Assembly (NCBI RefSeq): GCF_003217475.1
Contig: NZ_QJSP01000003.1
Coordinates: 248,001 to 312,000 of the forward strand
DNA from: Williamsia limnetica
GTDB taxonomy: Bacteria; Actinomycetota; Actinomycetes; Mycobacteriales; Mycobacteriaceae
Reading direction: 5' to 3'
DNA length: 64,000 bases
Part shown: piece after piece, positions 460 to 60,800 of the stretch
Position numbering within the stretch: position 1 is the first letter of the stretch
Layout: each line of letters starts with the position of its first letter
Translations under genes and position numbers: made by a program
The notes under the pieces: model-generated
Databases searched by the model: none
What the model was told of the DNA's origin: nothing
What the model saw: only the letters and a program-made list of their open reading frames with translations

Positions 460-530
460 AGACGCTCCACCTTTGCGAGGACGCGCCACATATTTGTGGC
501 GCGTCTTCGTACAGGTGGAGCGTTTGTGGG
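460..530. repeat. Nested four-arm palindrome, CGCTCCAC family (stand-alone copy)
   Basis: Outer arms ACGCTCCACCT (462-472) and AGGTGGAGCGT (513-523) enclose inner arms ACGCGCCAC (481-489) and GTGGCGCGT (496-504) around the loop ATATTT. The same architecture, loop and 3' flank (GCGTTT..GGGAGG type) recur at 57365-57430 and 58489-58550. Here the element lies between two convergent genes and may also act as a bidirectional terminator. No associated nuclease gene is next to it. Confidence 0.8.
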
Positions 531-4104: not shown

Positions 4105-4226
4105 GGGCCCGGTCGATGGTCAGTAGGGCCCGGTCGATGGTCAGTAGGGCCCGGTCGATGGTCAGTAGGGCCCGGTCGATGGTCAGTAGGGCCCGGTCGG
4201 CGGTCAGTAGGGCCCGGTCGGCGGGG
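4105..4226. repeat. 21-bp tandem repeat, six units
   Basis: Units start at 4105, 4126, 4147, 4168, 4189 and 4210, each beginning GGGCCCGGTCGATGGTCAGT; the last two have GGCGG in place of GATGG and the last is cut short by the RDD gene's stop codon. The first four units are identical. As 21 is a multiple of 3 the array stays open in one frame, but I see no sign that it is translated. It lies between the RDD gene's 3' end and the metQ promoter region. Confidence 0.92.
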
Positions 4227-9180: not shown

Positions 9181-9250
9181 ACACCCACCCGCTCCAGGCA
9201 AACCCACTTGCCGCAGCGGGTGGTTTTGCCTGGGACGGGTGGGTTTGTGG
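9181..9250. repeat. Nested palindrome between convergent genes, CCCACC motif
   Basis: The left arm ACCCACCCGCTCCAGGCAAA and a matching right arm (about 9226-9246) pair at roughly 18 of 20 positions. Inside them, CCCACT and GGGTGG form a second, weaker pair. The order motif-spacer-motif-loop-inverse-spacer-inverse is the one seen in the CGCTCCAC and CCTCCGAC elements, but with another motif. It sits between convergent genes (M23 peptidase and uvrD1) and may terminate both. Confidence 0.65.
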
Positions 9251-43456: not shown

Positions 43457-44412
43457 ACGCACCCATCGTCGCAGTGACCCGCAACGTCATCATGGCCGCT
43501 GCTCGCAGCGACCGGATCAAACGCACCGCCGAGAAGATGCCCGTCACCCGGAACGTGGTGCACCGCTTTGTACCCGGCGAATCGTTCGACGAGGTTCTCG
43601 ATGCCGGGACAGGCCTGCTCGCGTCCGGGCGCATGATCAGCATCGACCACCTCGGCGAGGACACCACCGACGAATCGGCGGCCGAGGCGACGGTACAGGC
43701 GTACCTGCGATTGATCGGGCTACTCGGCGAGCTGGAGGTCTCGTCACTCGAGCATCCCCTGGAGGTGTCACTGAAACTGTCTGCGCTGGGCCGTGCGTTG
43801 CCGCGCCACGGCGAGAAGATCGCGCTGGAAAACGCCCACCGGATCGCCGTCGCGGCAGCACAAGCCGGCGTCTGGGTGACCGTCGACGCCGAGGACCACA
43901 CCACCACGGACGCCACCCTGCGGATCGTCCGCGAACTACGCGCCGACTTCCCCGACCTCGGAACCGTATTGCAGTCCTATCTGCATCGCACAGAGGATGA
44001 TTGCGCCGAACTCTCAGGCCCGGGGTCGCGGATCAGGCTCTGCAAGGGAGCATATGCCGAACCCGCGGACGTGGCTTTCCAGACCAAGGCAGACGTCGAC
44101 GACTCCTACCTTCGGTGCCTACGAATCCTGATGGAGGGCAGTGGTTATCCCATGGTTGCCAGCCATGACCCGGCGATGATCGCGGCAGCGGAGACGTTGT
44201 CCGCAGCCGCCGGCCGCCGACCCGAGGAGTGGGAACACCAGATGCTCTACGGCATTCGCAATGGTGAGCAGCTACGACTCGCGCAGGTAGGCCGCCAGGT
44301 CCGGGTGTATGTCCCCTTCGGTTCACAGTGGTACGGCTACTTCATGCGCCGCCTCGCCGAGCGTCCGGCCAACCTCACGTTCTTCCTGCGTGCGTTGGTC
44401 TCGCGCGGCTGA
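43453..44412 (+). CDS. pruB: Proline dehydrogenase
   Basis: A 319-residue FAD enzyme with the TIM-barrel features of the monofunctional PRODH family: GRMISIDHLGEDTTDES, VSLKLSALG, DAEDHTTTDATL, RIRLCKGAY and the late YVPFG-x-x-W-Y-G-Y-F-M-R-R-L-A-E-R-P. It oxidises proline to pyrroline-5-carboxylate, passing electrons to the respiratory chain at the membrane. It begins with a GTG overlapping the pruA stop (GTGA), so the pair is coupled. Confidence 0.95.
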   Translation: MNAPIVAVTRNVIMAAARSDRIKRTAEKMPVTRNVVHRFVPGESFDEVLDAGTGLLASGRMISIDHLGEDTTDESAAEATVQAYLRLIGLLGELEVSSLEHPLEVSLKLSALGRALPRHGEKIALENAHRIAVAAAQAGVWVTVDAEDHTTTDATLRIVRELRADFPDLGTVLQSYLHRTEDDCAELSGPGSRIRLCKGAYAEPADVAFQTKADVDDSYLRCLRILMEGSGYPMVASHDPAMIAAAETLSAAAGRRPEEWEHQMLYGIRNGEQLRLAQVGRQVRVYVPFGSQWYGYFMRRLAERPANLTFFLRALVSRG

Positions 44413-44435
44413 TCCGCTTCCCCGCCCCCCCGAAA

Positions 44436-44514
44436 CCGGAGGAACTGACACATCCTCCGACTTTTGCCACACCCTCCGACTGTGCAACCGGAGGACCTGC
44501 TCAAAGTCGGAGGA
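44436..44514. repeat. Nested four-arm palindrome, CCTCCGAC family, 5' of nuclease gene
   Basis: Arms in order: CCTCCGAC (44454-44461), CCTCCGAC (44473-44480), CCGGAGGA (44488-44495), GTCGGAGGA (44506-44514); the outer pair extends to CCTCCGACTTT/AAAGTCGGAGG. A further inverse arm CCGGAGGA precedes at 44436-44443. The first 27 bases from 44437 (arm, then AACTGACACAT, then arm) occur again as an exact direct repeat at 45588-45614, past the gene. Confidence 0.88.
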
Positions 44515-44520
44515 GGTCTG

Positions 44521-44549
44521 TTATCCACAGGGTGCGCATCCATCCACAA
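44521..44549 (+). promoter_or_regulatory. Paired DnaA-box-like motifs in the nuclease leader
   Basis: TTATCCACA (44521-44529) is a perfect classical DnaA box. A second, weaker motif CCATCCACA begins at 44540, 19 bases later. They lie 6 bases after the palindrome and 50-80 bases before the gene's ATG. The paralogous locus has the same layout (58455-58481). Binding by DnaA is not shown; the motifs may serve another protein. Confidence 0.6.
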
Positions 44550-44600
44550 TTGACCCCTGACCAACGCTCGAGGTCGCCGGCGCCGGTCACACTCATCGGC

Positions 44601-45524
44601 ATGGACTTCACACCAGACGAGCACGGTCTGATTCGTCGCCGGGTCATCATAAAGTCGGGCATCGGTACGGATTCGGAGCTTCGATCGGCAAAGCAAGCCG
44701 GCGACCTGCAGTCGATCGTCCGTGGCGTCTCGGCTCCCGTTGACGAAGAACAACTCTCGCACGATGCCACATACCGTCGTGCGGTGATCGCCGTCGCCGG
44801 CCGCTCTCGCGTTCGGATCGTCAGCCACCAATCGGCGGCGGTCATGCACGGCATGGCGCTGCTGAAACCCGACAGACGGCACGTACACATGACTGCTCTA
44901 TCGAAGGGCAAAGTCGAAGGTGATGTCCATGTCCACCAGGGTGACCTTGCCGCGGGCGACGTCGTCATGGTCGACGGCATTCGGGTCACCAGTCGAGCAC
45001 TCACTGCTTGCGATGTAGCCAGAAGCGGCAGCTTCGAGCAGGCGGTCTCGGCACTCGATACTGCACTCCGCGAGGGGGTTCCGATTGTGGAACTGCATGC
45101 AATCGTGGCGCGATTTCCGTACGCAGAAGGAATCGGGACGTTGCGGAACGCGCTGATGGTCGCCGACGGTGACGCCGAGTCCGTCGGCGAATCTCTCAGC
45201 CGCGCATTGATGGTCGGTTGGGATGACATCCCGGTGCCGACCCTTCAACCCAGTTTTTACGACGACGAGGGATTCATAGGCCGGACCGACTTCGGCTGGG
45301 AAGGCAAGGTTGTCGGCGAGTTCGATGGCAAGACGAAATACCTGCGTTCGTGGCGCCCGGGTGAGCCTCCAGAAGAAACGGTGTATCGAGAGAAAGTGCG
45401 CGAAGACAGACTCCGCGCGCTCGGCCTCATCGTTGTGCGATGGACCTGGGACGACCTGATGCGACCGGATCGGCTCCACGCCAAACTGCAGAAGGCCCTG
45501 CGACAGGCCGGAATCATCGCGTAG
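44601..45524 (+). CDS. AbiEi-like N-terminus plus PD-(D/E)XK nuclease-like protein
   Basis: A 307-residue protein. The N-terminal two thirds resemble AbiEi-family antitoxin-type proteins (VRIVSHQSAAVMHGMALL, then a beta-rich TSRALTACDVARSGSFEQAV region). The C-terminal 90 residues look like a Vsr/DUF559-type nuclease: Glu/Ser in VGESLSRALM, Asp in GRTDFGWEG, Glu-Phe-Asp in VGEFDGKTKY, then VYREKVREDRLRALG and VVRWTWDD. It is a clear paralogue of the gene at 57441. No AbiEii toxin gene is next to it. The start is the ATG before DFTPDEHG; no strong ribosome site is seen. It is framed by nested palindromes. Confidence 0.78.
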   Translation: MDFTPDEHGLIRRRVIIKSGIGTDSELRSAKQAGDLQSIVRGVSAPVDEEQLSHDATYRRAVIAVAGRSRVRIVSHQSAAVMHGMALLKPDRRHVHMTALSKGKVEGDVHVHQGDLAAGDVVMVDGIRVTSRALTACDVARSGSFEQAVSALDTALREGVPIVELHAIVARFPYAEGIGTLRNALMVADGDAESVGESLSRALMVGWDDIPVPTLQPSFYDDEGFIGRTDFGWEGKVVGEFDGKTKYLRSWRPGEPPEETVYREKVREDRLRALGLIVVRWTWDDLMRPDRLHAKLQKALRQAGIIA

Positions 45525-45535
45525 GCCCCATACTT

Positions 45536-45614
45536 CCTCCGACACCAGCCACCTCCTCCGACTGCAACCGGAGGAACAGGACGAAGTCGGAGGAACTGAC
45601 ACATCCTCCGACTT
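45536..45614. repeat. Nested four-arm palindrome, CCTCCGAC family, 3' of nuclease gene
   Basis: Arms: CCTCCGAC (45536-45543), CCTCCGAC (45555-45562), CCGGAGGA (45568-45575), GTCGGAGGA (45586-45594), then a fifth CCTCCGAC at 45605-45612. Arm order and spacing match the 5' element. Bases 45588-45614 duplicate 44437-44463 exactly (27 bases). It starts 11 bases after the nuclease stop. Confidence 0.88.
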
Positions 45615-57364: not shown

Positions 57365-57430
57365 AAACGCTCCACAAATACGAAGGCGCTCCACATATTT
57401 GTGGAGCGTCTTTGTAGTTGTGGAGCGTTT
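57365..57430. repeat. Nested four-arm palindrome, CGCTCCAC family, 3' of nuclease gene
   Basis: Outer arms AAACGCTCCAC (57365-57375) and GTGGAGCGTTT (57420-57430); inner arms CGCTCCAC (57387-57394) and GTGGAGCG (57401-57408) around ATATTT. It lies 10 bases from the nuclease stop and between two convergent genes. It is close to identical to the copy at 58489-58550 and in the same orientation. Confidence 0.9.
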
Positions 57431-57440
57431 ACGGGTGGGC

Positions 57441-58436
57441 CTAGGCGTATCCCGCTCTGCGCAGGCCGTTGCGCAGGATCCGGCGCAACCGGTCGGGGTT
57501 CATCAGATCGTCCCAGCCCCACCGAGCGACGGTGAACCCCAGTTCGTTCAGACGCTCCTCGCGTCGTTTCTCCCGGTAGACCGCATCGGCAGGCGATTCA
57601 CCCGGCTTCAGGTAGCGGATGTACTTGTCGTACCCGTCGAATTCGCCCAACAGTGTGCCCTTGATGCGAAAGTCGGTTCGCGCCGCGAAGACACCGTCCG
57701 AGTCATGGATCTCCGGTTGCAGCTCGAGTACCGGGATATCACCCATGGTGGACATCAATGCGCGCGACCAAGACTCACCGATGCTCTCCGCTGCGACATC
57801 GGCGAATGCCACCGCTCGTCGTGCAGTGTCGATGCCTTTTCGTCGACCGGCCCGAGCGACGATGGTCTCCAGTTCGAGACGCGTCGCTCCCATGCGCAGC
57901 GCGGCGTCACACGCGCAGACTCCCTGTTCGAAGGTGCCGGCGCGACTGATGTCGACCGCCGTCCGTGCCGGTGTCGTCACCAGGAGTCCGGGCAGTTCGA
58001 TGACCTCATCCGGCTGCCAGGGCGTTGCATGAAGGGTGCAGGCACGAGTTCGATCGCGACCACCACCGGTCCGGTTGGCGGTGAAATGCACCCGCTCGAG
58101 ATCACCTCCCAGCATCGGCATTCCCCACAGCGCTGCCGCCGACCAATGGCTGACCGCTTTGTCGCCACGCCCCGCGTCGACTGCTCCGAGAACCTTGTAT
58201 CGGTAGCGGTGTTGCCGCTGTTCACGAGTCAGCAGTTCTCCGGCCGACCCACTGGGCAGATACATCCCCCAGTAGACCCTCTCCAGCGTGCCGTGCCGAG
58301 TTGCTGCCTGGAGCGAGTGGTCGCTCAGGCCTGCCGTACGCGCGTTGCGGCGCAGAATGAGCCCGTCCGGTGTCAGTTCGTGTTCCCCCACCTGACCGAT
58401 CCTGGGGCACCAACTCCGCCCGCCTGCCGGATCCAT
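57441..58436 (-). CDS. AbiEi-like N-terminus plus PD-(D/E)XK nuclease-like protein (paralogue)
   Basis: A 331-residue protein from the ATG at 58436. The N-terminal part has the AbiEi-like winged-helix pattern (SLQAATRHGTLERVYWGMYL, AVSHWSAAALWGMPM). The C-terminus matches the 44601 gene almost residue by residue: ESIGESWSRALMS, ARTDFRIKG, LGEFDGYDKYIRYLKPGESP, VYREKRREERLNELG, VARWGWDDLMNPDRLR. Conserved Glu, Asp, Glu and Lys positions fit a metal-dependent nuclease. The GTG at 58481 is rejected because it lies inside a DnaA-box-like motif and has no match in the paralogue. No toxin partner gene is adjacent. Confidence 0.78.
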   Translation of the reverse strand: MDPAGGRSWCPRIGQVGEHELTPDGLILRRNARTAGLSDHSLQAATRHGTLERVYWGMYLPSGSAGELLTREQRQHRYRYKVLGAVDAGRGDKAVSHWSAAALWGMPMLGGDLERVHFTANRTGGGRDRTRACTLHATPWQPDEVIELPGLLVTTPARTAVDISRAGTFEQGVCACDAALRMGATRLELETIVARAGRRKGIDTARRAVAFADVAAESIGESWSRALMSTMGDIPVLELQPEIHDSDGVFAARTDFRIKGTLLGEFDGYDKYIRYLKPGESPADAVYREKRREERLNELGFTVARWGWDDLMNPDRLRRILRNGLRRAGYA

Positions 58437-58454
58437 GCCGTTCAGATCGAGGGC

Positions 58455-58481
58455 TGTGGATAGCTTGCCTACTGTGGACAA
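58455..58481 (-). promoter_or_regulatory. Paired DnaA-box-like motifs in the nuclease leader
   Basis: Read on the gene strand: TTGTCCACA (58481-58473), a perfect actinobacterial DnaA box, then CTATCCACA (58463-58455), 18 bases on. They follow the palindrome by 7 bases and precede the ATG by about 20. The leader shares GTCTG and both boxes, at nearly the same spacing, with the 44.5-kb locus. Confidence 0.6.
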
Positions 58482-58488
58482 CCATCAG

Positions 58489-58550
58489 ACGCTCCACAAA
58501 TACAAAGCCGCTCCACATATTTGTGGAGCGGCTTTGTAAAGGTGGAGCGT
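58489..58550. repeat. Nested four-arm palindrome, CGCTCCAC family, 5' of nuclease gene
   Basis: Outer arms ACGCTCCAC (58489-58497) and GTGGAGCGT (58542-58550); inner arms CGCTCCAC (58509-58516) and GTGGAGCG (58523-58530) around ATATTT. AATACAAAG and CTTTGTAAA lengthen the stem. It sits in a divergent gap between the nuclease and the ROK kinase, so termination cannot be its only role. Confidence 0.9.
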
Positions 58551-60741: not shown

Positions 60742-60800
60742 CAGTACTGGCACGCCAGCTTCAGTACTCAACACAGTACTGGACGACGTCAAGCAGTACT
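60742..60800. promoter_or_regulatory. Operator array: four CAGTACT sites
   Basis: CAGTACT occurs at 60742, 60762, 60774 and 60794, start-to-start distances 20, 12 and 20. Sites 1 and 3 extend to the perfect palindrome CAGTACTG. The fourth overlaps the TetR gene's TACTAT box (60797-60802), seven bases before its ATG, so bound repressor would block its own promoter and the dehydrogenase promoter. The symmetric spacing suggests two dimer pairs. Confidence 0.85.

Follow-up and report, generated by a model that had tools for sequence, protein, structure and literature searches.

The window, a stretch of 64,000 nucleotides of Williamsia limnetica DNA, contains a gene for an AbiEi-like protein with a nuclease-like C-terminal domain that is the sole gene between two four-word palindromic elements (Table 1). 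Its neighbours are a proline dehydrogenase gene, which ends at 44412, and the gene of an NAD-binding oxidoreductase on the opposite strand. The sequence-only reading had described the gene as bracketed by two four-arm palindromes and had pointed out a 27-base block repeated exactly at its borders; both observations were confirmed. Its suggestion that this direct repeat marks the ends of the unit found no support, the block belonging to the near-identical elements present on both sides. Six elements of the same 19-nt geometry were found in the window: two bracketing pairs, the second of which surrounds a paralogous gene, and two satellites. The window also contains a tandem repeat of GGGCCCGGTCGATGGTCAGTA with a period of 21 at position 4105 and a cluster of CAGTACTGG with a period of 20 at position 60742.

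Table 1. Elements, genes and leader of the two units and the satellite elements, in window positions
Feature	Position	Strand	Remarks
Stand-alone (satellite) element, CGCTCCAC type	462..523	undefined	19-nt detector and match to flanks of a resident paralogue
Stand-alone (satellite) element, AAACCCAC type	9181..9246	undefined	best match: flanks of paralogue L024, contig C2
Outer hairpin (ACCGGAGG...TCCTCCGACTT) adjoining the upstream element	44435..44463	+	contains copy 1 of the 27-base block (44437-44463)
Upstream four-word element	44453..44514	+	word TCCTCCGA, 19-nt period, score 28/32; model R1 match C3:292454-292513
Leader doublet TTATCCACA / CCATCCACA	44521..44548	+	19 nt apart; DnaA-box-like pair
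Focal gene	44601..45524	+	307 aa; AbiEi-like N-terminal part and Vsr/DUF559-like nuclease domain (residues 190-307)
Downstream four-word element	45534..45595	+	word and orientation as in the upstream element; score 30/32; R1 match C3:293536-293593
Outer hairpin 3' of the downstream element	45585..45614	+	contains copy 2 of the 27-base block (45588-45614)
Second-unit element, 3' side of its gene	57368..57427	-	word CGCTCCAC, score 32/32
Paralogous AbiEi/nuclease gene, second unit	57447..58379	-	44-46% identity to the focal gene
Second-unit element, 5' side of its gene	58490..58549	-	word CGCTCCAC, score 32/32

The family alignment comprises 44 of the 52 homologues analyzed below. All 44 match the PADLOC AbiEi models, 24 match Pfam AbiEi_4 and a single one matches the Pfam DUF559 model. 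The columns D230, E240, D242 and K246 are invariant, and in a structure model whose first 130 residues are of low confidence the predicted C-terminal fold matches a Vsr-like homing endonuclease. This domain is predicted from the model to be a Vsr-like PD-(D/E)XK nuclease, in support of the earlier proposal that the enzyme is of this kind and not a RAYT. A RAYT as the enzyme was rejected, domain PF01797 being found in none of the nine genomes of the genus set (own genome included), with a positive control that matched in 5 of 14. At an E-value of 1e-30 or better, the family is present in 62 of the 121 genomes searched, those of the genus itself included. A phage origin was rejected, since no relative was found in a phage collection and none in IMG/VR, either with the protein or with the 44-member alignment, which reached conserved-stretch patterns only; a plasmid collection yielded five records with a relative, all typed as non-mobilizable. 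No AbiEii toxin gene adjoins the focal gene, and at four distant named relatives no neighbour is annotated as AbiEii, some of these neighbours being hypothetical proteins.

The search for homologues identified 59 loci, seven of which (L032, L033, L067, L069, L081, L083 and L084) were left out as fragments or because of contig ends. At the remaining 52 the 300 nt upstream of the gene were aligned with the 300 nt downstream by the Smith-Waterman method, using a cut-off of 29.5 that corresponds to the 99th percentile of 353 control genes. The flanks resemble each other above this limit at 49 of the 52 loci, the exceptions being L026, L074 and L080, and at all 21 loci outside the genus, which come from 21 genomes and 15 genera of the same family. 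Control genes, for flanks as for leaders, are from Williamsia only, the other genera being controlled by a comparison across loci (median 20, 95th percentile 27). Since the 52 loci include five focal-locus orthologues as well as other orthologue pairs, they do not amount to 52 independent cases. In the best alignment of each of the 49 pairs, the flanking elements are direct copies at 30 loci and inverted copies at 11, with 8 undecided. Reading of the flanks of 21 homologues, the focal gene included, revealed that the palindromes are specific to each paralogue type. The expectation that homologues elsewhere are flanked by palindromes is thus borne out at most loci by palindromes of their own and fails for the CCTCCGAC motif, and the matching flanks support the view that gene and palindromes form one unit.

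The layout that recurs is W-11-W-loop-W'-11-W', with a period of 19 nt and an 8-base word W that varies between paralogues. A blind search for word-gap-word-loop-word'-gap-word' at all periods from 10 to 30, with a score of at least 26 of 32, found period 19 in 62 of the 104 flanks as compared with 0-4 for any other period and 0 in shuffled flanks. At this score 38 of the 52 loci have the 19-nt geometry on one flank or both, but no more than 24 have it on both, so that some members have decayed or different elements. The same search was extended to 1,239,831 bases of the W. limnetica genome at periods 12 to 26: at a score of at least 30, period 19 gives 17 places and every other period 0-1, the corresponding figures being 31 and 0-4 at 28 or more and 40 and 0-11 at 26 or more. 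Among the 35 places with a score of at least 27, 22 have no family gene within 400 nt. For 20 of these 22 stand-alone elements the match to the flanks of a resident paralogue exceeds that of 99% of 600 random-word elements; for the other two (C2:302660 and C3:438983) no resident paralogue was matched. As for more distant named relatives, the Tsukamurella locus L207 has the 19-nt geometry on both sides. Locus L206 has other tandem repeats at its flanks, L205 has no clear element there, and at L208 (Collinsella aerofaciens, NZ_OY725717.1; Coriobacteriia) both flanks carry repeated GTCTC..CTGTAAC palindromes of a different geometry; these three weigh against generality.

The order of parts in a unit is element, leader, gene, element, the leader having either a single TTATCCACA-like box or two of them. 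For flanks scoring at least 26, the median distance from the end of the upstream element to the gene match is 96 nt (n=28), and that from the matched gene end to the start of the downstream element is 17 nt, stop codon included (n=34). A TTATCCACA-like box lies within 160 nt upstream of the gene at 39 of the 52 loci and a pair of boxes 17-20 nt apart at 18, with a box in 17 of 404 control genes and a pair in none. The step of the leader pair, 18-19 nt, is that of the four-word elements. The pair resembles a DnaA box, and the shared leader may be either a genuine DnaA site or an operator proper to the family.

The elements of the focal type are themselves more widely distributed than the gene. 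TCCTCCGACTT occurs 21 times in the W. limnetica genome (designated G000 in our set), in about eleven clusters mostly away from the focal gene. A tblastn search with the focal gene found 12 places in the same genome, one of them a fragment, and among these paralogues the focal gene alone sits between CCTCCGAC clusters, so that CCTCCGAC as a mark of the whole gene family was rejected. Taken literally, the association of the gene family with this one motif therefore did not hold, the other paralogues being devoid of CCTCCGAC arrays and such arrays being present at unrelated genes; the reason is that the word differs from one paralogue type to the next. The initial pattern CCTCCGAC-N5-GTCGGAGG gave no matches, and the centre GGTTGCAACC, considered as common to other element types, proved to be so only in part. 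A model of the 58-nt core (R1), built from 19 of 25 cores, detected copies in eight of the nine genus genomes, which have 12 to 84 matches each when both strands are counted, and no CCTCCGAC element on either strand of G001. As most of the copies lie away from the gene, the CCTCCGAC type is a dispersed repeat. R1 matches number 71, 84, 76, 53 and 24 in the five genomes that have an orthologue of the focal gene and 12, 30, 16 and 0 in the four that lack one, the genomes being related and hence not independent. A scan of 301 genomes with R1 gave weaker matches in 9 genomes of three other genera, and a motif scan of named genomes gave matches in records of W. muralis and Williamsia sp. 1138. The arms of the CCTCCGAC type vary with no compensatory signal, which indicates that the sequence is kept and not the hairpin alone; selection on RNA structure was rejected for this type on the same ground. 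A known Rfam RNA was rejected as well, the sole match in 10 loci searched being a TPP riboswitch (RF00059, 63.7 bits, at L017 934-1026, G000 contig C9).

Comparison of orthologous sites informs on the history of the focal locus. G002, G003, G005 and G008 have an orthologue of 66-67% identity in the equivalent gap, again flanked by CCTCCGAC-type arrays. Here the gene is inverted with respect to its neighbours, but the elements face the same way as before when compared with the proline dehydrogenase gene. The corresponding gap in G004, G006, G007 and G001 contains no family gene. In G004 and G007 it holds one element of another type, with the word TTCGCGCC (scores 27 and 29), in G006 a palindrome of the TTCGCGCC type, as judged by eye, and in G001 a plain hairpin. 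The persistence of CCTCCGAC elements in G004, G006 and G007 despite the lack of a focal-gene orthologue counts against reading the unit as mobile.

An empty-site allele, as proposed earlier, does exist for the paralogous unit at 57368-58549, which G000 and G007 share; G004 cleanly lacks it, with 14 nt between the aligned flanks, and at this one junction, read by eye, there is no clear target-site duplication. Inversion of the gene between species was observed at two loci, the focal one and C3:367363, whose gene is inverted in G007. The single element at C3:386282 has as its G007 counterpart two elements around a 228-aa open reading frame (L270 1160-2030) with no Pfam family and no match to a family member, and the element at C3:207001 is missing in G008, a plain hairpin taking its place. 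In G008, two CCTCCGAC arrays bracket an open reading frame of about 170 aa (L150 7907-8740; start chosen by hand) that has no Pfam match and lies between carboxyl transferase and Emb arabinosyltransferase genes. The elements may carry or release bystander genes. The CCTCCGAC sites were compared at 8 loci of G000, 9 of G006, 3 of G007, 2 of G004 and 6 of G008, which are not all that exist. Five of the eight G000 sites are common to G006 or G007, so that movement would be slow, and among the 8 G000 and 6 G008 loci compared the gene-bearing locus alone is common to both clades. This fits a master that stayed in place and satellites that spread slowly and separately in each clade.

The CCTCCGAC type is oriented against the leading strand at all eight G000 loci with measured GC skew, a count that leaves out C10:120317 and C11:143115 and includes C10:191068, where the skew is weak (-0.010). 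In G008 it points towards dnaA at 11 of 15 clusters, these being our own grouping of the R1 matches; of the four that point away from the origin, three do so by at most 5 bits between strands and one is a weak 35-bit match. If the contig is circular, 14 of the 15 clusters are no farther than 1.6 Mb from dnaA. The CGCTCCAC type also shows polarity in G000 (8 of 8 loci, one of them narrowly), and for the five remaining of the seven element types the orientation test, in which reference copies were chosen from the data, was mixed or uninformative. Insertion coupled to replication would give such polarity, and so could a strand bias of mutation acting on the spacers; we put this forward as a lead only.

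The closest known system is the REPtron, in which a RAYT (TnpA-REP) gene is bracketed by its cognate REP/REPIN palindromes and accompanied by dispersed non-autonomous copies, sometimes with several lineages per genome, the REP hairpins being defined as short and GTAG- or CGTC-tagged (PMC3733652). Here, too, one enzyme gene lies between palindromes of its own type, further copies of which are dispersed, but the predicted C-terminal fold is Vsr-like and not that of an HUH/Y1 transposase, and the elements have four words at a 19-nt period; read by eye, those listed show no common tag of the GTAG or CGTC kind. RAYT genes are inherited slowly and mostly vertically. The AbiE type IV toxin-antitoxin system has in common with the present family an AbiEi-like N-terminal part, which here is joined to a predicted Vsr-like nuclease domain with no adjoining AbiEii gene at the focal locus, and with palindromes that stand on both sides and are dispersed. 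The homing endonuclease I-Bth0305I (Vsr-like, EDxHD), the DUF559-like protein 3hrl and Vsr itself resemble the predicted fold, conserved acidic residues and lysine included, whereas the gene studied here is free-standing between two others and has an AbiEi-like domain and flanking palindromes in addition. Like a homing endonuclease gene, the second unit has occupied and empty alleles of one site, and a homing-type cleavage of the empty allele followed by copying through recombination would account for them. Compact one-gene units with similar ends, gene-less satellites and an empty site also recall an insertion sequence with its MITEs, but no known transposase is seen in the unit, the ends are near-palindromes instead of simple terminal inverted repeats, and no target duplication was recognised at the one junction examined by eye.

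On balance we favour, with some reserve, a REPtron-like system of masters and satellites whose enzyme is a winged helix-turn-helix/Vsr-like nuclease, forming a family of small selfish-like units in Mycobacteriales. The AbiEi-like part would bind the gene's own word, as an inverted pair of 19-nt direct repeats, and the nuclease would nick or cut at or beside the element; repair or recombination would then copy elements to other places as satellites, and sometimes the whole unit, and the same copying could flip the gene between its flanks. Mobility of the units, recognition of the word by the protein, cleavage there and the role of cleavage in their spread are what we infer from these comparisons. 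We give about even chances to the broader proposition that they constitute a new mobile class, independent of RAYT/REPIN, in which such nucleases diversify their word while keeping the four-word 19-nt geometry, each founding its satellites by replication-coupled or break-driven copying. Enzyme and repeat geometry fit no family tested, even though the logic of the system parallels that of REPtrons; no description of this pairing of nuclease and palindromes was found in open-licence papers, and one may exist elsewhere.

Among other explanations, a regulatory one is the most probable, though unlikely: the elements would be operators of an AbiEi-like autorepressor that has retained its nuclease domain, the flanking pair serving both insulation and autoregulation and the stand-alone copies constituting a regulon. 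AbiEi binds 11-bp inverted repeats in the promoter of its own gene (PMC3985639), and the conservation of CCTCCGAC-type words as sequence, the common leader ahead of many family genes and the inheritance by descent of five of the eight stand-alone G000 sites compared all agree with operators. Such a role hardly accounts for the element copy that as a rule lies just 3' of the gene (median 17 nt, n=34), for invariant presumed catalytic residues, for satellites that remain in genomes without the gene or for a whole unit cleanly missing in a sister species. That all 44 aligned members match AbiEi models of PADLOC would also suit a solitary nuclease of the type IV toxin-antitoxin kind, acting in defence or addiction with the palindromes as protected self-sites or decoys; we regard this as improbable, given that the focal gene stands alone between its elements, that no neighbour is annotated as AbiEii at the four distant relatives and that one word per paralogue, with satellites, is not predicted.

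The polarity of the CCTCCGAC type (8/8 G000 loci, 11/15 G008 clusters) and of the CGCTCCAC type (8/8 G000 loci) raises the question of a role in chromosome organisation, with origin-facing elements marking the replichores as KOPS or similar sites do and the nuclease family parasitic on them. We attach little probability to this, the copies being few, the five other types mixed or uninformative, four of the 15 G008 clusters facing away and G001 lacking any CCTCCGAC element; strand mutation bias could moreover shape the spacers, and replication-coupled insertion is equally expected to bias orientation. Ordinary intrinsic terminators, or chance repeats around a common gene, are hardly credible: the elements do occupy intergenic gaps, and some orthologous gaps have a plain terminator-like hairpin instead, but terminators would not be expected to have one word on both sides of a gene and other words at its paralogues, nor to show the 19-nt period or satellites that match resident genes. 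Unless the controls are flawed, they refute this last reading.

REP palindromes commonly go with a RAYT, and the master-and-satellite system favoured here would follow the same logic with a different enzyme, in genomes with no detectable RAYT domain (0 of 9). It provides a testable function for a family annotated in named relatives as 'hypothetical protein' or 'AbiEi family antitoxin domain-containing protein'. As the paralogues have different words and one geometry, the family represents a natural experiment on change of DNA specificity in a nuclease.

Four records titled Kitasatospora arboriphila NRRL B-24581 (NZ_JNYV01; loci L087, L091, L095 and L096) carry Williamsia elements, and L096 has a 66% orthologue of the focal gene; this genome may be mislabelled or contaminated. 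Several contigs of G006 contain between them seventeen DnaA-domain (PF00308) matches, many of equal score and length, which points to a mobile element that carries an ATPase gene and is present in many copies.
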